In this document: one piece after another, positions 15,992 through 26,179 of the stretch
Layout: each line of letters starts with the position of its first letter
Numbering within the stretch: the first letter of the stretch is position 1
From: Chloroflexus aggregans DSM 9485
GTDB taxonomy: Bacteria > Chloroflexota > Chloroflexia > Chloroflexales > Chloroflexaceae
Length of the DNA stretch: 64,000 bases
Direction of reading: 5' to 3'
Assembly: GCF_000021945.1 (NCBI RefSeq)
Contig: NC_011831.1
Span: 4,415,353-4,479,352 of the forward strand
Made by a program: the position numbers and the translations under genes
Notes under the pieces: model-generated
Seen by the model: only the letters and a program-made list of their open reading frames with translations
What the model was told of the DNA's origin: nothing
Database searches by the model: none

Positions 15992-16020
15992 TTGACAAAG
16001 CCGATCTGGTGGGTTACACT
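15992..16020 (+). promoter_or_regulatory. near-consensus promoter of the PxWL/MutL-like operon
   Basis: Consensus TTGACA (15992-15997), a 17-bp spacer and TACACT (16015-16020), 67 bp before the first gene. A 6-bp hairpin (TGCGGC/GCCGCA, about 15912-15932) upstream may end the preceding transcript. The rest of 15870-16086 shows no gene. Confidence 0.75.
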
Positions 16021-16086
16021 CAATACGATTGTAAGATTGTTCATCTCGAAGAAGGTTGCTTGTCGCGGGAGGAAAGGGAATACGGT

Positions 16087-16881
16087 ATGACCTTGCCGGC
16101 AATCTTTTTGCTAGTTGCGCTTGCGATTGTCGTAGCATTTGTCTGGCTTCATCACGCGCGCGTTCTCGCCGGTCGTTTGCCGGTGAGGCGGTCGTTGCCG
16201 GCGCTAGACGCATTGCGGATGGCGCTCGCTCGTAGTGCCGAAACGGGTCGTGCGGTTCATCTTTCTCCCGGTGCAAGTACAATCGGTGCCGGTGAAGGTC
16301 AACGGGCGAGTACGGCAGAGCTGCTTGCCGGTTTACAGGTGGTTCGGCAGGCTGGCGAACAGGCTGCGGCAAGTGGGTCGGCTGTTGTGATTAGCTCGGC
16401 TGACGCCGTTGCCTATTTTTCCTTGCGTGGCGCCATACGACAAGCGTACCGCGGAGTTGGTCAGCCGCAGGCGTTTGATCCGCGTCGGATCGAGCTGTGG
16501 GCGCATGCCGATCCGTTGGCGTATGCGGCGGCTGTGGCAGCGCACTATCATCGTGAGCCGTTGGAAGCCAGCACGATGGTTGGGGTGTTCGGACCTGAGG
16601 TCTTACTGGCCGCTGAGATTGGCGCCCAACAGCAGATTCCGCAAGTGTTAGGGAGTACCAATCCGGCATCGCTAGGTGTGATGTCTGTGGTTACGCCCTA
16701 TGTGCTGATCGGCGAAGAGATCTTCGTCACGGAAGCCTATTTGACAACTGCGTCTGCGCCACAGGCCCGTTTGCTTACGCATGACACGTTGCGTGTAACG
16801 GTGATCGGGTTGATGGTGCTGGCGTTTGGTTATGGTGTGATCCGAGCTGTATTCGGATTGCCGGCTTTGCCGGGGTGGTAA
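16087..16881 (+). CDS. DUF6754-like membrane-anchored protein
   Basis: The 264 residues have one N-terminal membrane segment (about 4-22), a soluble central domain (about 45-225) and one C-terminal membrane segment (about 238-256). The central domain has recurring G/A-rich helices (TAELLAGLQVVRQAGEQAAASGSAVV) and GVFGPEVLLAAEIGAQQQIPQVLGST. I associate this pattern with DUF6754 from memory; the function is unknown. The longer frame from 16009 is rejected because GGAAAGGG sits before the ATG at 16087 and the hydrophobic start follows directly. It is the first gene of a five-gene operon and is followed 4 bp later by the next. Confidence 0.7.
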   Translation: MTLPAIFLLVALAIVVAFVWLHHARVLAGRLPVRRSLPALDALRMALARSAETGRAVHLSPGASTIGAGEGQRASTAELLAGLQVVRQAGEQAAASGSAVVISSADAVAYFSLRGAIRQAYRGVGQPQAFDPRRIELWAHADPLAYAAAVAAHYHREPLEASTMVGVFGPEVLLAAEIGAQQQIPQVLGSTNPASLGVMSVVTPYVLIGEEIFVTEAYLTTASAPQARLLTHDTLRVTVIGLMVLAFGYGVIRAVFGLPALPGW

Positions 16882-16885
16882 GTGT

Positions 16886-17554
16886 ATGTCATCGCTATTG
16901 CGCAATCCTCGTCAGTTAATTGCGGTATTAATTGCCGGGGTGAGCGGGTTAATCGTACTCCTTGATTTTGTCGGCTCTGGCCCGGTTGTGAAAGCGCTGG
17001 CGATGGTGCTGGTGCAGTGGGCGGCACTCATTACAGCCTTTGCGGTCGTTATTGGGGCGGTAAGCGTCTTCAGTGCTCATCTCCGTCGTGTGCGTGCGCG
17101 CGCACCAGAAGCCGGTTATAGCCTTGTCTTGATCATCGGTATGGTGATCGTGATCGTGGCCGGTATCTTTTATCCAACTCGCACTGCCACGGGGTTGACC
17201 CTTCCGATGACGCTAGCCGCTCCGCCGATCCGTACCGTCTTTCGTCTGATCTATGAACCGCTGGCTGCCAGTTTGCTGGCATTGCTCGCTTTTTTTGCCC
17301 TCAGTGCTATGTTACGTGCTCTGCGCAGTGGACGGACTGAAGCGATTGTCGTTGTTAGCATAGCGCTGTTGGCTTTGGTGATCCAGTTGCCACCATTGAC
17401 CTTCATTCCTTTTATTGGCCAGATGGTACAGTGGCTGAATGACTATCTTGTAGCCGCCGGCGCACGTGGCCTGCTGTTGGGGTCGGCAATTGGTGCATTG
17501 ATCGCCGGCGTGCGTCTGCTGATTGGCTTTGATATGCCGTATGCCGATCGTTAA
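16886..17554 (+). CDS. hypothetical polytopic membrane protein
   Basis: 222 residues with about five or six hydrophobic segments separated by short charged loops (one reads HLRRVRARAPEAG). No family is recognised and no catalytic residues stand out. It starts 4 bp after the DUF6754-like gene and 31 bp before the giant repeat gene, so it belongs to the same operon and may form a membrane complex with its neighbours. Confidence 0.7.
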   Translation: MSSLLRNPRQLIAVLIAGVSGLIVLLDFVGSGPVVKALAMVLVQWAALITAFAVVIGAVSVFSAHLRRVRARAPEAGYSLVLIIGMVIVIVAGIFYPTRTATGLTLPMTLAAPPIRTVFRLIYEPLAASLLALLAFFALSAMLRALRSGRTEAIVVVSIALLALVIQLPPLTFIPFIGQMVQWLNDYLVAAGARGLLLGSAIGALIAGVRLLIGFDMPYADR

Positions 17555-17585: not shown

Positions 17586-20500
17586 ATGGAACACTTACCG
17601 CCATGGCTTCGTAACGTACCGTTGCCACCGGCGCCGGATGAAGATGACTCAACTCCGGCATGGCTGCGTGGTATCGATAGCTTGACTCCCCCACCACCGC
17701 CGGCAGCGGCAGCACCACCGGATTGGCTGACCGCCGATGAACCGACGGCTGAAGCGACAAGTGTGCCAGACTGGTTGGCGGAGTTGCAGGCAGAGGTGAG
17801 CGATCCGCTGGCCGATGCTCAATCGGCAGCATGGCTTCGTGATGCCGATTCAGGCTCATCGGGAGAGGCTGTGCCACCGGTAGAGCCGCCGCTGACAACG
17901 AGTTCGCGCCTCCGTATGCCGATTGGACCAACCGATCTGCTGCGCAGTATCGGGTACGAAGAAGCGCTCGAACCGACATCAGAACCACCGCTAGAGCCAG
18001 AAGCACCGGTAGATGCAGATGTTGATACCGGTGTGCCTGATTGGTTGCGTGAATTGAGCGATGAAGAGATTACGGAGGCATTTGCTACTACGCCGTCCGA
18101 ACCATCTTTGTCGACGAGTGAGCCGGCAGCGGCAGTAGATTCGGTTTCTGAGCCGGCCCTTGATGACTGGCTGAAAGAGTTGGATCGGATCGTCCCTGAA
18201 ACTAGCTCGACTGATTGGTCAGCCGGTGTAGCTCCCGGTGACGAGACGGTCTTTTCCCCTGATGCACCGGCATGGTTGGACTCGGATCAATCCGCTGCGG
18301 GTGGCGCGTCTGCGTTTGATCTACCGCCATGGTTGCAAAATGTAGCCGGTGATGAGCCGCCGGTTGTCGCCGGCTCGGTACGGCTTGATCTACCGACATG
18401 GCTGCTCGATGACAACATTATTGCTTCCGATCCATCCACGACCACGCCACCGGTGGCACCGGATGCGCCTACCTTGTTGGCTGATAGCAATGCCGTATCA
18501 CCTGATACCGGTGCCGTTGATCGCGGTAATGCCTCGTGGTCGCCAGATGAAGGTGTCGCCGATGCTGAAGATGTTCCAACGTGGTTGTTAGAAGCCGAGC
18601 GCCAAGTCCTACCTCCTGCCGATGCTGACGCTGCCCCGGCCTGGTTGCAGGCGGAGGAGCCGGCCGCACCGACCAGCGACGTACCGGCGTGGTTGCGAAC
18701 GGAGGAGCCGACGGCGCCGACCAGCGACGTGCCGGTGTGGTTGCAGGCGGAGGAGCCGGCTGACGCTGCCCCGGCCTGGTTGCAGGCGGAAGAGCCGGCC
18801 GCACCGACCAGCGACGTACCGGCGTGGTTGCGGGCGGAGGAGCCGGCTGACGCTGCCCCGGCCTGGTTGCAGGCGGAAGAGCCGGCCGCACCGACCAGCG
18901 ACGTACCGGTGTGGTTGCAGGCGGAAGAGCCGGCTGACGCTGCCCCGGCCTGGTTGCAGGCGGAAGAGCCGGCCGCACCGACCAGCGACGTACCGGCGTG
19001 GTTGCAGGCGGAGGAGCCGGCTGACGCTGCCCCGGCCTGGTTGCGGGCGGAGGAGCCGGCCCGTGATACATCTAGTGAAATACCGACGTGGTTACGGGAA
19101 GCTGACGCCAGTGATCTTTCTGCTTGGGAGAAAACTGAACCGGCGCGAGCTAGTGGTTTAGATTGGTTGCAGGCGGAGGAGCCGGCTGACGCTGCCCCGG
19201 CCTGGTTGCAGGCGGAAGAGCCGGCCGCACCGACCAGCGACGTACCGGCGTGGTTGCGGGCGGAGGAGCCGGCTGACGCTGCCCCGGCCTGGTTGCAGGC
19301 GGAAGAGCCGGCCGCACCGACCAGCGACGTACCGGCGTGGTTGCGGACGGAAGAGCCGACGGCGCCGACCAGCGACGTACCGGCGTGGTTGCGGACGGAA
19401 GAGCCGACGGCGCCGACCAGCGACGTGCCGGCGTGGTTGCAGGCGGAGGAGCCGGCCGCACCGACCAGCGACGTACCGGCGTGGTTGCGGGCGGAGGAGC
19501 CGGCTGACGCTGCTCCGGCGTGGTTGCAGGCGGAGGAGCCGGCCGCACCGACCAGCGACGTGCCGGCGTGGTTGCAGGCGGAGGAGCCGGCCGCACCGAC
19601 CAGCGACGTGCCGGCGTGGTTGCGGGCGGAAGAGCCGACGGCGCCGACCAGCGACGTGCCGGCGTGGTTGCAGGCGGAGGAGCCGGCCCGTGATACATCT
19701 AGTGAAATACCGACGTGGTTACGGGAAGCTGACGCCAGTGATCTTTCTGCTTGGGAGAAAACTGAACCGGCGCGAGCTAGTGGTTTAGATTGGTTGCAGG
19801 CGGAGGAGCCGGCTGACGCTGCCCCGGCCTGGTTGCAGGCGGAGGAGCCGGCCGCACCGACCAGCGACGTACCGGCGTGGTTGCGGGCGGAGGAGCCGAC
19901 GGCGTCGACCAGCGACGTACCGGCGTGGTTGCGGGCGGAGGAGCCGACGGCGCCGACCAGCGACGTACCGGCGTGGTTGCGAACGGAAGAGCCACCGGCG
20001 TCGACCAGCGACGTACCGGCGTGGTTGCGGGCGGAGGAGCCGACGGCGCCGACCAGCGACGTACCGGCGTGGTTGCGGGCGGAGGAGCCGACGGCGCCGA
20101 CCAGCGACGTACCGGCGTGGTTGCGGGCGGAGGAGCCGACGGCGCCGACCAGCGACGTACCGGCGTGGTTGCGAACGGAAGAGCCACCGGCGTCGACCAG
20201 CGACGTACCGGCGTGGTTGCGGGCGGAGGAGCCGACGGCGCCGACCAGCGACGTACCGGCGTGGTTGCGGGCGGAGGAGCCGACGGCGCCGACCAGCGAC
20301 GTACCGGCGTGGTTGCGGGCGGAGGAGCCGACGGCGCCGACCAGCGACGTGCCGGCGTGGTTGCAGGCGGAAGAGCCGGCCGCACCGACCAGCGACGTAC
20401 CGGCGTGGTTGCGGGCGGAGGAGCCGACGGCGCCGACCAGCGACGTACCGGCGTGGTTGCGGGCGGAGGAGCCGACGGCGCCGACCAGCGACGTACCGGC

Positions 20501-22436
20501 GTGGTTGCGAACGGAAGAGCCGACGGCGCCGACCAGCGACGTGCCGGCGTGGTTACGGGCGGAAGAGCCGACGGCGCCGACCAGCGACGTACCGGCGTGG
20601 TTGCGGGCGGAAGAGCCGACGGCGCCGACCAGCGACGTACCGGCGTGGTTGCGGGCGGAAGAGCCGACGGCGCCGACCAGCGACGTACCGGCGTGGTTGC
20701 GGGCGGAGGAGCCGACGGCGCCGACCAGCGACGTGCCGGCGTGGTTGCGGGCGGAAGAGCCGACGGCGCCGACCAGCGACGTGCCGGCGTGGTTGCGGGC
20801 GGAAGAGCCGACGGCGCCGACCAGCGACGTACCGGCGTGGTTGCGGGCGGAAGAGCCGACGGCGCCGACCAGCGACGTACCGGCCTGGTTGCAGGCGGAA
20901 GAGCCGACGGCGCCGACCAGCGACGTGCCGGCGTGGTTGCAGGCGGAAGAGCCGGCCGCACCGACCAGCGACGTACCGGCGTGGTTGCGGGCGGAGGAGC
21001 CGACGGCGCCGACCAGCGACGTACCGGCGTGGTTACGGGCGGAAGAGCCGACGGCGCCGACCAGCGACGTACCGGCGTGGTTGCGGGCGGAAGAGCCGAC
21101 GGCGCCGACCAGCGACGTACCGGCGTGGTTGCGAGAATCTGGCGCGAGTACTGCTGATACACCTGATTGGCTCATCGGGGGTGAGCAAACTGAAGACCTT
21201 CCATGGTTACAGGCTGAACCGTCCGCGCTATCGGTGACTGCCGAACCGTCAACAACGACGAGTTCAAGCAGTGACGAATTCTTTAGTGGGGCCGAGTTAC
21301 CGCCATGGCTACGTGCTTCCACGGAACGCATTGTGGAGCCGGCGGCTACTCCATCCCTAAGTTGGCTACAACGTTTGAGTAGTCGTGAAGCGGAGCTGGA
21401 AGACGAAGCTAGTGCTCCTGAGGTTGTGGTGGTTAAACCACCGCTGCCGATGCCGGCTCCACGCACTCCTGATCAGGTGGCGGCAATGGCCCTCCTTGAA
21501 CGTTTGATCCAGTCGCCATTGCCACAACCGGTACCGGTCGAGCAACCGACAGTTGTTCGTCGCCGATTACCGAAACTCGAGCATTGGTTGGCGTGGGTCT
21601 TGTTGGTTGCCGTGCTCGTCAGCTTGCTGATCCCCGGCTTACCCAATCCGCTGATGGGCCAAGTGCAGCCTTCTCCGACAGCAATTGCGTTGAGCGAGCG
21701 ATTGACCGCATTGGGTAGCGATGATGTGGTGTTGGTGGCCTACGAGTGGGGTGCCCAGCGAGTTGCTGAGTTGCGACCACTTGAACAGGCGCTCTTCAAG
21801 CAACTAACAGTTGATCGCACAAAACTGATCATCGTTAGTACCGATCTTCAAGGAGCGATACTCGCATTCGACCAACTTGGGCCGTTGCGCGCTGCTGGCT
21901 ACAACAACGAAAATGGGGTTACCTTTGGTGGTCGCGATTACGTGCTTCTCGGCTATCGTCCCGGTGGTGAACTGGCGCTGCGCAGTATTGCCGGTGACTT
22001 GCGCGCCCAGTTGCGTCGTGATTATACCGGTCAAGATGCTACTGCCGGCCTATTGGCGACACGCCCCGATGGTTCGCCACGGGTCGAGACCCTCGCCGAT
22101 CTGGCAATGATCGTCGTTATGGCCGATCAAGTGCAGGATGTACAGGCGTGGATGGAACAGATCCACAGTGCTGCTCCTCAAGTACCGATTGCTTTCTTGC
22201 TCCCCCAAGAGGTCTATCCGCAAGTGCTGCCCTATCTGCGCTTACCTAATGTGTATGCGGTGGCCGGCCAGCGTGGTGCGGCTGAGTTACGTGCTGCGAG
22301 CGGAACTGATGAAGTGGTCTCCACAATGGTGGCAAATCAGACGTGGGCTACGATCATGTTCGTGATCGTGATGATGGTTGGTGGTGTGATTGTCATTATT
22401 GAGCGGTTGCGGCGCCCAGCCCGCGGGAGCGCATGA
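17586..22436 (+). CDS. giant PxWL-repeat protein with membrane-anchored C-terminal domain
   Basis: 1616 residues. Residues 1-345 are acidic and disordered-looking, with diverged motifs of the form P/D-x-W-L (PPWLRN, TPAWLRG, VPDWLAE, DDWLKE). Residues about 348-1180 are about 53 near-identical repeats of 16 residues (VPAWLRAEEPTAPTSD) or 13 residues (AEEPADAAPAWLQ). Two more WL copies follow. A membrane segment at about 1333-1352 is preceded by RRRLPK. A soluble Rossmann-like domain spans about 1365-1580, and a second membrane segment lies at about 1586-1608, followed by ERLRRP. Charge rules put the repeats in the cytoplasm and the soluble domain outside. It may be a multivalent scaffold whose WL motifs bind a partner. 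The family is not recognised. Confidence 0.8.
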   Translation: MEHLPPWLRNVPLPPAPDEDDSTPAWLRGIDSLTPPPPPAAAAPPDWLTADEPTAEATSVPDWLAELQAEVSDPLADAQSAAWLRDADSGSSGEAVPPVEPPLTTSSRLRMPIGPTDLLRSIGYEEALEPTSEPPLEPEAPVDADVDTGVPDWLRELSDEEITEAFATTPSEPSLSTSEPAAAVDSVSEPALDDWLKELDRIVPETSSTDWSAGVAPGDETVFSPDAPAWLDSDQSAAGGASAFDLPPWLQNVAGDEPPVVAGSVRLDLPTWLLDDNIIASDPSTTTPPVAPDAPTLLADSNAVSPDTGAVDRGNASWSPDEGVADAEDVPTWLLEAERQVLPPADADAAPAWLQAEEPAAPTSDVPAWLRTEEPTAPTSDVPVWLQAEEPADAAPAWLQAEEPAAPTSDVPAWLRAEEPADAAPAWLQAEEPAAPTSDVPVWLQAEEPADAAPAWLQAEEPAAPTSDVPAWLQAEEPADAAPAWLRAEEPARDTSSEIPTWLREADASDLSAWEKTEPARASGLDWLQAEEPADAAPAWLQAEEPAAPTSDVPAWLRAEEPADAAPAWLQAEEPAAPTSDVPAWLRTEEPTAPTSDVPAWLRTEEPTAPTSDVPAWLQAEEPAAPTSDVPAWLRAEEPADAAPAWLQAEEPAAPTSDVPAWLQAEEPAAPTSDVPAWLRAEEPTAPTSDVPAWLQAEEPARDTSSEIPTWLREADASDLSAWEKTEPARASGLDWLQAEEPADAAPAWLQAEEPAAPTSDVPAWLRAEEPTASTSDVPAWLRAEEPTAPTSDVPAWLRTEEPPASTSDVPAWLRAEEPTAPTSDVPAWLRAEEPTAPTSDVPAWLRAEEPTAPTSDVPAWLRTEEPPASTSDVPAWLRAEEPTAPTSDVPAWLRAEEPTAPTSDVPAWLRAEEPTAPTSDVPAWLQAEEPAAPTSDVPAWLRAEEPTAPTSDVPAWLRAEEPTAPTSDVPAWLRTEEPTAPTSDVPAWLRAEEPTAPTSDVPAWLRAEEPTAPTSDVPAWLRAEEPTAPTSDVPAWLRAEEPTAPTSDVPAWLRAEEPTAPTSDVPAWLRAEEPTAPTSDVPAWLRAEEPTAPTSDVPAWLQAEEPTAPTSDVPAWLQAEEPAAPTSDVPAWLRAEEPTAPTSDVPAWLRAEEPTAPTSDVPAWLRAEEPTAPTSDVPAWLRESGASTADTPDWLIGGEQTEDLPWLQAEPSALSVTAEPSTTTSSSSDEFFSGAELPPWLRASTERIVEPAATPSLSWLQRLSSREAELEDEASAPEVVVVKPPLPMPAPRTPDQVAAMALLERLIQSPLPQPVPVEQPTVVRRRLPKLEHWLAWVLLVAVLVSLLIPGLPNPLMGQVQPSPTAIALSERLTALGSDDVVLVAYEWGAQRVAELRPLEQALFKQLTVDRTKLIIVSTDLQGAILAFDQLGPLRAAGYNNENGVTFGGRDYVLLGYRPGGELALRSIAGDLRAQLRRDYTGQDATAGLLATRPDGSPRVETLADLAMIVVMADQVQDVQAWMEQIHSAAPQVPIAFLLPQEVYPQVLPYLRLPNVYAVAGQRGAAELRAASGTDEVVSTMVANQTWATIMFVIVMMVGGVIVIIERLRRPARGSA
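18629..21130 (+). repeat. 48-bp and 39-bp tandem repeat array inside the PxWL gene
   Basis: About 53 units by my count. The 3' half (19829-21130) is almost entirely 48-bp units; the 5' half mixes 48-bp and 39-bp units. A higher-order block containing an ARDTSSEIPTWL segment occurs twice, 627 bp apart (from 19061 and from 19688). Unit lengths are multiples of 3, so length changes keep the frame. Units differ at few, often synonymous sites, which indicates recent expansion or homogenisation. Confidence 0.95.
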
Positions 22437-23083
22437 TGGATCTGGCAATCAATCTGATCCCGGTGTTGCTGACGCTGCTCGTGTTTAGCCGTCTGTTCGG
22501 CGATACACCGGCCTTCCGGCTTGTACAGTATCTGTTTGTTGGTGTAGCGTTAGGCTACGCGGTAGTTGTAATCTACCATCAGGTGCTGCGCCCGGCAGTC
22601 GTTGATCTTTTGTTAGCTAGTGGGCAGCCTGGTTTGGTGACGTTGCGTCTCATCCCATTTGTATTAGCCGCTCTCTTGCTGACGCGCGTTAGCGGTCAAC
22701 AAACGAATTCATGGCTGGCTAATCTGCCGCTCGCGTTAGTTTTTGGTGTTGGAGCGGCACTGGTGGTGGGCGGTGCATTGATCGGTACGATCATGCCTCA
22801 AGTCCTCGATGCCACTCGGCTTGATCTGAGTGCTCCGGCTGCAATACTGGGTAGTCTTGTTCTGTTTATCGGTTCTATCGTGACTCTGCTCTCGTTTTCC
22901 TTTACTCGGTCGGCCGATCCACGCCGCCAACGCTGGCTCGATAGCACCGCACGAGTAGGTCGTTGGTTCCTCCTGATTGCATTTGGTTTCTTTTTGGCCG
23001 GGAATGTGAGTTCTTATCTTGCTGCACTGAACGAACGGTTGTTGTTCGTTGTTGAGTGGTTTCGGGCGGTGCTGGGGGCGTAA
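22433..23083 (+). CDS. hypothetical polytopic membrane protein
   Basis: 216 residues with about six hydrophobic segments and few charged residues (one basic loop reads RSADPRRQRWLD). It overlaps the end of the giant repeat gene by 4 bp (ATGA), so the two are probably translated together. The MutL-like gene starts 10 bp later. No family is recognised; the context suggests a membrane partner in the same complex. Confidence 0.7.
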   Translation: MMDLAINLIPVLLTLLVFSRLFGDTPAFRLVQYLFVGVALGYAVVVIYHQVLRPAVVDLLLASGQPGLVTLRLIPFVLAALLLTRVSGQQTNSWLANLPLALVFGVGAALVVGGALIGTIMPQVLDATRLDLSAPAAILGSLVLFIGSIVTLLSFSFTRSADPRRQRWLDSTARVGRWFLLIAFGFFLAGNVSSYLAALNERLLFVVEWFRAVLGA

Positions 23084-23092
23084 GGGAGAGGT

Positions 23093-24925
23093 ATGTCTAC
23101 AGTGCGTGCTGTATTGGTAGTCGAGATCGGGAGTGTTACGACCCGCGTGTCGCTGATCGATCAGGTCGATGGCGAAAGCCGTTTGATCGGTCAAGCCGAG
23201 ACACTTACAAGCTGTGAATTGCCGTACCAAAATATCTTCTTCGCTATCCAAGAAGCAACAGCGCAGATTGCCGATCTCACCAGCCGTCAGCTCCTGCATG
23301 ATGGCCGTTTATTGATGCCCCAGACGATTGCCGGTGATGGGATTGATGCTGTTGTGGTTGTTGCATCAGCCCTTGAACCATTACGGGTGGTGGTGGCAGC
23401 GATTGCGGCTGATGTATCGGCCCGCAGTGCGTTGCACGCGGTACAGGGTGTGCCTGGCGTCGTGTTGGCGGTGATAACCCTCGATGATACGTTGGGGCAC
23501 CCGCCGGCTGTCGAAGATCGGTCGTGGCTCGAACGCCAACTCGAGACGCTCTTACCACTCTCACCTGATGTGATTGTTGTGACCGGGGGTGTGGAAGGTG
23601 GTGCGACGGATTCGGTCATACGGTTGGTGCAATTGGTGAATTTGGTATTGGCGTTCAAGCAGACCACCGGTGAACCGTTACCCACTATCGTTTATGCCGG
23701 GAATACTGCAGCCCAAGCGCAAGTGCAGGTGGCGCTTGCAGAGTACAAGAACAACGTTCTGATGGTCGCCAATGTGCGCCCGGAACTTGAACGCGAAGTG
23801 CTCGCGCCGCTACGTCGGGCACTGCTCGCCCGCTATGCTCGTCAGTTGACCGATCTGCCCGGTCTGAACGCATTGACGGTGGAGCATACGACGTTGCATA
23901 CCGTGGTTGAGGCTCAGTATCTGATGACCCGTTTCTGGGCTGAGCGACAACGGCAACCGGTGTTGTATGTGGATGTGGGGGCAACGACGACCACTCTGAT
24001 CGCCGCAGCTCCCGATCAAGTTCACGCGGCGATCCACGGTGTGCGTGGTACGGCCTATGGCGCAGCCCACGTGCTCAGTGAAATAGGTCCTGCCGCCCTG
24101 GCGCGCTGGTTGCCATTCGCAATGACCGAACAGGAACTGACCGAGCGCGTGCTCAATCGAGTGCTGCGACCGCAGACGATACCTGCTACACGTGAAGAAT
24201 GTTATCTTGATCTCGCGCTTACCCGTGCAGTACTGACGCTCGGAATGGCTGCTTTGCGTGATGAGGCGCCGACGTTGGAGTATAGCTATGTGATCGCGAG
24301 TGGTGGGGCACTGATCCACGCACCGCATCCCGGTATGGCCCTGTTGGCTTTGCTCGATGGGTTGCAGCCGGCTAATGAACTACCCGGTTTGCTCTTGCAC
24401 GTTCACCTCGATACGTTTGGTTTGATGTCGGTCTGCGGTGGTCTAGCCACGTTACATCCTGAAGCGGCCCTTTCCGTCTTCGATCACGATTTGCTGTTGA
24501 ATACCCCGTTGGCGACGTGTATCGTGTTGCAAGGGAGTGGCCGGCCCGGTGAACTGGTCGCCGAGGTCGAACTAATTGCAGTAGGTGGCGACACCGAGTA
24601 CGCACAGGTATGTTCGGGTGATCTGGTTCGTTTGCCGCTACCGATTGGCCGGTACGCGCAGGTCAAAGTCAAACTAACTCCCGGTGTGCGGGTAGGCCGT
24701 GATGTTTCCGGTGAGCCGGTAGCGAGTGATCCGGCGGAAGTGCCCGGTAGCCTCCTCGGACTGATCATCGATGCCCGTGGCCGTCCGTTATCGCTTCCTG
24801 AAGATGGTGCTGAGCGGCGACGGTTGCTGTGGTCGTGGTTACGAGCGTTGGACGCGGAACGGAGCGATAGTCCTTACCCTGAACCGGAAATAGCCTTACC
24901 CGAACATCGAGGCGTTGGAGGATAA
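23093..24925 (+). CDS. MutL-like (glutamate mutase accessory family) actin-fold ATPase
   Basis: 610 residues with the ATPase motifs of the actin/Hsp70/hexokinase fold: a phosphate-1-like VEIGSVTTRVSLID at 10-23 (Glu where Asp is usual), phosphate-2 DVGATTTT at about 294 and an adenosine motif ASGGALIHAP near 403. The layout matches the MutL family, named for a gene beside glutamate mutase, but no mutase genes lie here. It is longer than a typical MutL of about 460 residues, with a C-terminal extension of about 150 residues of beta-rich sequence. GGGAGAGG precedes the ATG. As the last gene of the operon with three membrane proteins and the PxWL scaffold, it may power or polymerise with that complex. 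The role is inferred. Confidence 0.75.
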   Translation: MSTVRAVLVVEIGSVTTRVSLIDQVDGESRLIGQAETLTSCELPYQNIFFAIQEATAQIADLTSRQLLHDGRLLMPQTIAGDGIDAVVVVASALEPLRVVVAAIAADVSARSALHAVQGVPGVVLAVITLDDTLGHPPAVEDRSWLERQLETLLPLSPDVIVVTGGVEGGATDSVIRLVQLVNLVLAFKQTTGEPLPTIVYAGNTAAQAQVQVALAEYKNNVLMVANVRPELEREVLAPLRRALLARYARQLTDLPGLNALTVEHTTLHTVVEAQYLMTRFWAERQRQPVLYVDVGATTTTLIAAAPDQVHAAIHGVRGTAYGAAHVLSEIGPAALARWLPFAMTEQELTERVLNRVLRPQTIPATREECYLDLALTRAVLTLGMAALRDEAPTLEYSYVIASGGALIHAPHPGMALLALLDGLQPANELPGLLLHVHLDTFGLMSVCGGLATLHPEAALSVFDHDLLLNTPLATCIVLQGSGRPGELVAEVELIAVGGDTEYAQVCSGDLVRLPLPIGRYAQVKVKLTPGVRVGRDVSGEPVASDPAEVPGSLLGLIIDARGRPLSLPEDGAERRRLLWSWLRALDAERSDSPYPEPEIALPEHRGVGG

Positions 24926-24974
24926 AGTAAGTTAGTGTGGCCTGTGCCTATCCGCCGTGTGCCTTTGGTCAAGA

Positions 24975-25145
24975 CACGGATAGAACGGATAGCCACGGAT
25001 GGTTCAGAATGGCGCGATAGATCCGTTGCAATCCGTGTACTCTTGGTCAGACCACGGATAGAACGGATAGAACGGATAGCCACGGATGGTTCAGAATGGC
25101 GCGATCCGTGACCATCCGTCAGATCCGTCGCAATCCGTGTGCTCT
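24975..25145. repeat. intergenic ACGGAT-type direct repeats
   Basis: Two copies of a unit beginning CACGGATAGAACGGATAGCC start at 24975 and 25053, the second carrying an extra 9-bp AGAACGGAT. Each continues through GGTTCAGAATGGCGCGAT to a CAATCCGTGT/CTCTT end. ACGGAT and ATCCGT occur many times in both orientations, so the region can fold. It fills the gap between the convergent MutL-like gene and korB and may also act as a terminator. Confidence 0.7.
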
Positions 25146-26179
25146 TACCTTTCACGCGTGAGATCGGCCATCACAGCGGCGAACGCCTCCCGGGTTGGAC
25201 GTAGACGATCTTCTGGCAATGCTGCGATTGGTGTCGGGCCGATACTCAACGTCTCGGCCAATGTCGGGCGTTGTTCGTTTAGATAGATCAAACCGGTCAC
25301 AAACTCGCCAGAAGCACGGGCCTGTTCCAGCAATTGTAGTGCCGCCATCCGATTGCTCGGATCGTGGTCGTGACTCAGTTTGCGCAATCGGATAACCGGG
25401 CCATCGTGGAGTTGGACATCGCGCACCTCGCCCGGTTCATAATCCACCGTCACCTCTTCGTAGTGCGGGATAAAGCTGATGTCGTGCAATGGCGACTCGT
25501 GCGTCTTCCCATAGGTATAACTCTTGGTCGAACGGTCGTGGTTGTTAAAGGTAACGCATGGACTAATGACATCGATCACGGCGGCACCGTGAAAATTGAA
25601 GGCAGCCTTGATCAATTCTCGTACCTGTTTGGCATCGCCGGCAAACGAACGGGCCACGAAACCACAGCCGGCCAAAATTGCTTCGGTACAGACATCAATC
25701 GGCGGTAAGTGATTAACACCGGCATGCTTCAGCTCTTGCCCCTCATCGGCGGTGGCCGAAAATTGACCTTTCGTGAGGCCATACACCCCGTTATTTTCCA
25801 CGATATACACAATCGGCACGTTACGCCGTAACAGATGGATAAACTGTCCCAAGCCGATACTGGCCGTATCGCCATCACCACTTACGGCGAGCGGGCGTAA
25901 CGTATGGTTGGCGAGATGTGCGCCGGTGGTTACCGATGGCATTCGGCCATGGAGTGAATTAAAACCGTGTGAACGACCCAAGAAGTAAGCAGCCGACTTA
26001 CTCGAACAACCAATGCCGCTCATGCGAATGACGGTATGCGGTTGGAGCGAAAGTTCAAACGCTGCGGTAATAATCTGGCTGGCAACCGAGTCGTGTCCGC
26101 ATCCGGCGCAGAGTGTCGATGGTGCGCCGCGGTAATCTGCCTTGGTCAGGCCAATTGCATTTATCGTTTGCTGGGTCAT
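25145..26179 (-). CDS. korB: 2-oxoacid:ferredoxin oxidoreductase, beta subunit
   Basis: Thiamine-diphosphate-binding subunit that works with KorA to convert a 2-oxoacid (2-oxoglutarate or pyruvate) and CoA to acyl-CoA, reducing ferredoxin. The 344 residues show the cluster-type CAGCGHDS near 24, ending in GIGCSSK, and the TPP motif SGDGDTASIGLG with NNGVYGLT further on. The substrate cannot be fixed from sequence alone. The gene follows korA by 90 bp on the minus strand. Confidence 0.9.
   Translation of the reverse strand: MTQQTINAIGLTKADYRGAPSTLCAGCGHDSVASQIITAAFELSLQPHTVIRMSGIGCSSKSAAYFLGRSHGFNSLHGRMPSVTTGAHLANHTLRPLAVSGDGDTASIGLGQFIHLLRRNVPIVYIVENNGVYGLTKGQFSATADEGQELKHAGVNHLPPIDVCTEAILAGCGFVARSFAGDAKQVRELIKAAFNFHGAAVIDVISPCVTFNNHDRSTKSYTYGKTHESPLHDISFIPHYEEVTVDYEPGEVRDVQLHDGPVIRLRKLSHDHDPSNRMAALQLLEQARASGEFVTGLIYLNEQRPTLAETLSIGPTPIAALPEDRLRPTREAFAAVMADLTRER

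Follow-up and report, generated by a model that had tools for sequence, protein, structure and literature searches.

The stretch of DNA analysed here, referred to as the window, comprises 64,000 nucleotides of the Chloroflexus aggregans DSM 9485 genome (NC_011831.1, positions 4,415,353 to 4,479,352). At 17586-22436 of its forward strand lies an open reading frame of 1616 aa, whose product combines a long tail rich in W-L pairs with a C-terminal membrane core, and which is embedded in a cluster of five genes. The features of the locus are the following:

16009..16881, + strand: DUF6754 protein, conserved neighbour (PF20539, E 2.5e-26; synteny)
16886..17554, + strand: 222-aa membrane protein, conserved neighbour (synteny; weak Pfam match to DUF2304 only)
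17586..22436, + strand: whole gene, with PxWL tail, transmembrane helix, Rossmann-like domain and transmembrane helix (ORF, motif count, structure prediction)
17586..18605, + strand: N-terminal section of the tail (residues 1-340), diverged, with 11 WL motifs
18606..21134, + strand: tandem array, residues 341-1183, 53 WL motifs, mainly with a 48-bp unit
21135..21381, + strand: motifs after the array (residues 1184-1265), ELPPWLR and LSWLQRL among them
21558..22433, + strand: membrane core, common to tail-less relatives (AlphaFold, homologues)
22433..23083, + strand: 216-aa membrane protein, conserved neighbour (synteny; weak Pfam match to DUF998)
23093..24925, + strand: MutL/GlmL-like ASKHA-fold protein, conserved neighbour (PF13941, E 8e-70; AlphaFold; PDB matches)

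The protein contains 69 WL pairs, 63 of which take the form [PD]xWL. The sequence-only reading had placed about ten motifs in the N-terminal part, about 53 in the array and more just after it, with spacers of varying length, and both the counts with their coordinates and the varying spacers are essentially correct. When each tail region was compared with 5000 composition-preserving shuffles, residues 1-340 held 11 WL and 10 [PD]xWL against shuffle means of 1.26 and 0.34, and the array (residues 341-1183) held 53 and 51 against means of 3.8 and 0.9, with 0 of the 5000 shuffles reaching the observed numbers in either region. Residues 1184-1290 contain 4 WL and 2 [PD]xWL (means 0.42 and 0.07, reached by 0 and 10 of the 5000 shuffles, respectively). 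The last pair, WL number 69 at residue 1334, falls within the first of the two transmembrane helices, and we do not count it as a motif copy. At the DNA level, TRF places the array at 18636-21133, with about 52 nearly identical copies of a 48-bp unit, and the distance from one WL to the next is 16 aa in 41 intervals, 13 aa in 8 and of other lengths in the rest. Sequence similar to the post-array region is retained throughout the class. Large ORFs of 1059, 461 and 426 aa overlap the gene in other frames, since the array generates them as by-products. The tail is acidic, with a net charge of -197, and 79% of its residues are disorder-promoting, disorder being judged here from composition alone.

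The full motif is longer than PxWL and reads [DE]-[VLIM]-P-x-W-L-[RQ]-[ED]. In a profile of 546 distinct W contexts from tails of the family, P is found at position -2 in 76% and L at +1 in 89%, with a preference for [DE] at -4, [VLI] at -3, [RQ] at +2 and [ED] at +3. The aromatic residue is W in 487 of about 510 distinct strict motif contexts, F and Y being nearly absent from this position, and the F versions amount to six, confined to one family (f5). In the non-array part of the tail, W and P both have a within-genus identity of 1.00 and L one of 0.93, compared with 0.52 for other residues. Across 40 units of the array, no amino-acid change is seen at D, V, P, W or L, although the codons for V and L vary synonymously, and pN/pS within the array is about 0.26 overall, a value that is indicative only as the copies are not independent. 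Constancy in the array alone is weak evidence because its copies are related by duplication.

Comparison between relatives separates the motif from the repeat that carries it. Within Chloroflexus, the period of the array is 16 aa in C. aggregans, 16, 17 or 22-23 aa in a second genome (L039) and 14 aa in a third (L040), and a fourth (L041) has little array. The unit consensus of C. aggregans and that of L039 have identical codons at positions S(-5) through R(+2) but differ in most spacer codons, and the copy number of array units also differs between species. Tails from other genera and families are for the most part free of repeats, with 10-40 motifs usually still present, and the motif is likewise retained in other Chloroflexota families and classes. 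Thus, rather than homologues that keep the repeats and lose the W-L pair, the opposite is seen: the motif stays and the repeats change. The proposal in the sequence-only reading that selection targets the motif and not the length is therefore supported by the residues kept in the non-array tail and by the period, spacers and copy number that differ among species and families.

Certain tails depart from this pattern. Few or no motifs are present in some Chloroflexota tails (L171, L173, L183, L187 and L190), a zinc ribbon without any WL being seen in two of them (L171 and L173), and two loci of another Chloroflexota family (f22) have no tail. A zinc-ribbon-like CxxC...CxxC module opens many tails of other families and classes (L074-L088 and L174-L189) and is not found in Chloroflexaceae. 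At four loci (L047, L049, L067 and L070), the tail ORF is far shorter than that of sister species and begins 1.7-2.7 kb from the upstream genes, as if the frame had been broken or misassembled within the repeat.

The motif DNA patterns were also searched in the whole C. aggregans genome, a single contig of 4,684,931 bp. The strict pattern occurs at 46 sites, 43 of them in the tail gene, and the reversed control gave 2 and 2. Strict sites outside the tail gene are thus at control level, which rules out a proteome-wide address label. The loose codon pattern for PxWL shows no genome-wide enrichment (654+639 sites against 1107+1035 in the control), and a genome search with the diverged N-terminal part of the tail yielded no second gene.

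In the membrane core, an alpha/beta domain lies between a helix at residues 1331-1348 and a long helix at residues 1578-1609, as predicted by AlphaFold with a mean pLDDT of 90. By the positive-inside rule, the basic residues that precede the first helix and follow the second would place the tail in the cytosol. Fold searches with the core domain returned generic Rossmann matches, the best VIA Z being 8.9, with many unrelated Rossmann families tied, and the best Foldseek match having an E of 3.3e-3; the core is therefore assigned to no family of Rossmann-type proteins, such as those with RCK domains. A low-complexity match of the array to Cornifin/SPRR (PF02389) reached 26.0 bits, below the Pfam gathering cut-off of 34.8, and was rejected. 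The core is present in 36 of 41 genomes of the family, 71 of 158 of the class and 86 of 400 sampled genomes of the phylum. In phyla other than Chloroflexota, among them Marinimicrobia, Zixibacteria and Bacillota, the core ORF measures 276-361 aa and has neither tail nor motif, with the neighbour genes retained beside it. As other phyla have a tail-less core, the tail seems to have been added to an older membrane protein specifically in this phylum.

The five genes keep their order in the loci of the class with enough flanking sequence, as they do in most of the loci sampled from other Chloroflexota classes, and their products probably form one membrane complex. In Marinimicrobia and Bacillota (L140 and L144) a conserved protein of about 370 aa follows the MutL-like gene and may also belong to the complex. 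Literature searches found no paper mentioning DUF6754, and those on a Chloroflexus repeat protein and on a Chloroflexota MutL context returned nothing relevant. With regard to the MutL-like neighbour, its PF13941 match relates it to GlmL/MutL, the accessory proteins of B12 mutases, but its score of 66.8 bits is far under the NCBIfam equivalog cut-off of 475 for the methylaspartate mutase accessory protein GlmL. The protein adopts an ASKHA fold in the AlphaFold model (mean pLDDT 93.7), and its profile found no credible relative among solved structures by sequence. Its C-terminus varies between lineages. In at least three of them (L078-L081, L088, and L063 with L126) the C-terminal tail contains the PxWL motif one to three times, and in most other Chloroflexia MutL-like proteins (L039-L127) the C-terminus is a conserved stretch of basic and aromatic residues, for example KKRGLFGRKK or KKRGFFRRK, which is sometimes repeated, KPRQGWFGRKK being present three times in L091. 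This basic aromatic end may bind the membrane or the acidic tail. The C. aggregans protein has no C-terminal extension, hence there is no clean co-variation and the extension was rejected as the receptor of the motif. Downstream of the gene, at 24960-25150, there is a short direct repeat of ACGGATAGA units, with copies spaced at 87 bp, and partial copies are found at four other places in the genome.

Our preferred explanation, to which we give a probability of about 0.62, is that the tail is a Chloroflexota-specific multivalent docking tail of linear motifs, borne by the two-helix membrane protein of a conserved cluster. The N-terminus of this protein would have grown, in Chloroflexota, into a long cytosolic tail, acidic, proline-rich and probably disordered, on which [DE]-[VLIM]-P-x-W-L-[RQ]-[ED] is displayed many times. 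The motif has the look of an N-capped short helix, so that a docking peptide is the natural way to read it, and it would most likely form such a helix and dock into a groove of a cytosolic partner. With roughly 10 to 69 copies, which in Chloroflexus are gained by tandem duplication, the tail would provide avidity and concentrate the partner at the complex, and with so many near-identical docking peptides one complex could hold or concentrate many copies of that partner. A docking tail had already been proposed in the sequence-only reading, and the part of it that stands is the architecture expected of a multivalent motif tail, namely many copies of a conserved motif in an intervening sequence that is free to change; the docking itself, with its partner and purpose, the helix on binding, the disorder and the topology, is what we infer beyond it. 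That reading had not noticed the extended form of the motif, the anchoring in the membrane, the conservation of the operon or the relatives without a tail in other phyla. Tails with many copies of a single short motif in a disordered chain are found in AP180 and Eps15 (for clathrin adaptors), in Pex5 (WxxxF/Y) and in EPYC1 and CsoS2 (for Rubisco). The PxWL tail resembles them in its many motif copies and probably in its disorder but differs in motif and receptor, and no sequence relation is expected.

Other explanations share part of this evidence. Neutral expansion, in which the array is a product of replication slippage and WL has no function, would fit the near-identical DNA copies and the copy number that differs among species, but the motif persists in the diverged non-array parts and in families without such arrays; this conservation across families largely contradicts it, and we consider it extremely improbable. 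A tail that is long, acidic and of low complexity, with many regularly spaced Trp, could also behave as stickers and spacers, the W residues mediating self-association or contact with the membrane non-specifically, in a condensate-like state that has no dedicated receptor, and the basic tails of some Chloroflexia MutL-like proteins could pair with it. Such stickers would need no P(-2), L(+1) or R/Q(+2) and should tolerate F or Y, whereas both constraints are strict here; the constant flanking positions, together with the almost complete lack of F and Y, thus argue against generic sticker behaviour, which seems very unlikely. The receptor might instead be the MutL-like ASKHA protein itself, gripping the motif as PilM grips the N-terminus of PilN or FtsA the tail of FtsZ. 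It is a conserved neighbour of the tail gene, PilM:PilN and FtsA:FtsZ complexes are among the PDB matches of its fold, and, as in the PilM-PilN pair, the genes for an ASKHA-fold protein and for a membrane protein that has cytosolic peptides lie next to each other. Nevertheless, these matches span many ASKHA families and are unspecific, the fold match being common to all ASKHA proteins, and the PilM-PilN system has another membrane partner and another motif, the PxWL cluster having no pilus genes. Furthermore, the MutL-like protein bears the motif itself in several lineages, and it is of similar length in the same cluster of tail-less phyla; that it adjoins tail-less proteins equally counts against it as the receptor, and we regard this role as quite unlikely.

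A special case of the docking model is that the motif imitates the C-terminal peptide of FtsZ, the tail binding FtsA or receptors of the ClpX/MinC type and linking the complex to division or to FtsZ filaments. The C-terminus of Chloroflexota FtsZ, (L)DIP[PA]FLR, agrees with the motif at positions -4, -3, -2, +1 and +2, and both share [DE]-hydrophobic-P-x-aromatic-L-R, whether at the terminus of the disordered FtsZ linker or inside the probably disordered tail (the FtsZ peptide of Chloroflexus being DLDIPPFLR). With F in place of W, the strict pattern has only 10 sites in the C. aggregans genome, two of which are the C-termini of both its FtsZ proteins. These are encoded outside the window, at genome positions 2787028-2787963 and 3510288-3511241, and end in a DIPPFLR/DLPPFLK peptide; the second gene is below the TIGR00065 cut-off and is also present in both other Chloroflexus genomes searched. 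Residues I374, F377 and L378 of FtsZ, which are key ZipA contacts (PMC8669495), correspond to motif positions -3, 0 and +1. FtsA, which is also bound by the FtsZ tail (PMC4383033), was found in 22 of 22 Chloroflexota genomes searched, and Pfam SepF (PF04472) had no match in any of the 22. Measured against [DE]-[IVL]-P-x-F-[LI]-R, the tail motif agrees at the other positions but has W as its aromatic in nearly all copies, with F versions limited to f5. FtsZ has a single copy with F and a basic flank, whereas the membrane protein has tens of copies with W, followed by acidic flanks, and there is no division gene near the locus. As FtsZ was singled out for the comparison, the resemblance may be due to chance, and the mimicry is an unproven minority hypothesis that we consider unlikely. 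Equally doubtful, if not slightly more so, is the proposal that a tail imitating the FtsZ peptide as many as about 65 times recruits or titrates FtsA or another receptor of the FtsZ tail. If it were true, a complex with its own actin-fold protein and imitations of the FtsZ peptide would be a phylum-specific division or filament regulator of Chloroflexota.

Under the preferred docking explanation, tens of copies of one strict motif, spread phylum-wide on a bacterial membrane protein, are unusual. The core gene cluster is widely distributed, being present also in Marinimicrobia, Zixibacteria and Bacillota, and no paper on it was found. The existence of natural tail-less relatives makes the role of the tail testable, and the motif offers a ready bait for the partner and thereby for the function of the complex.
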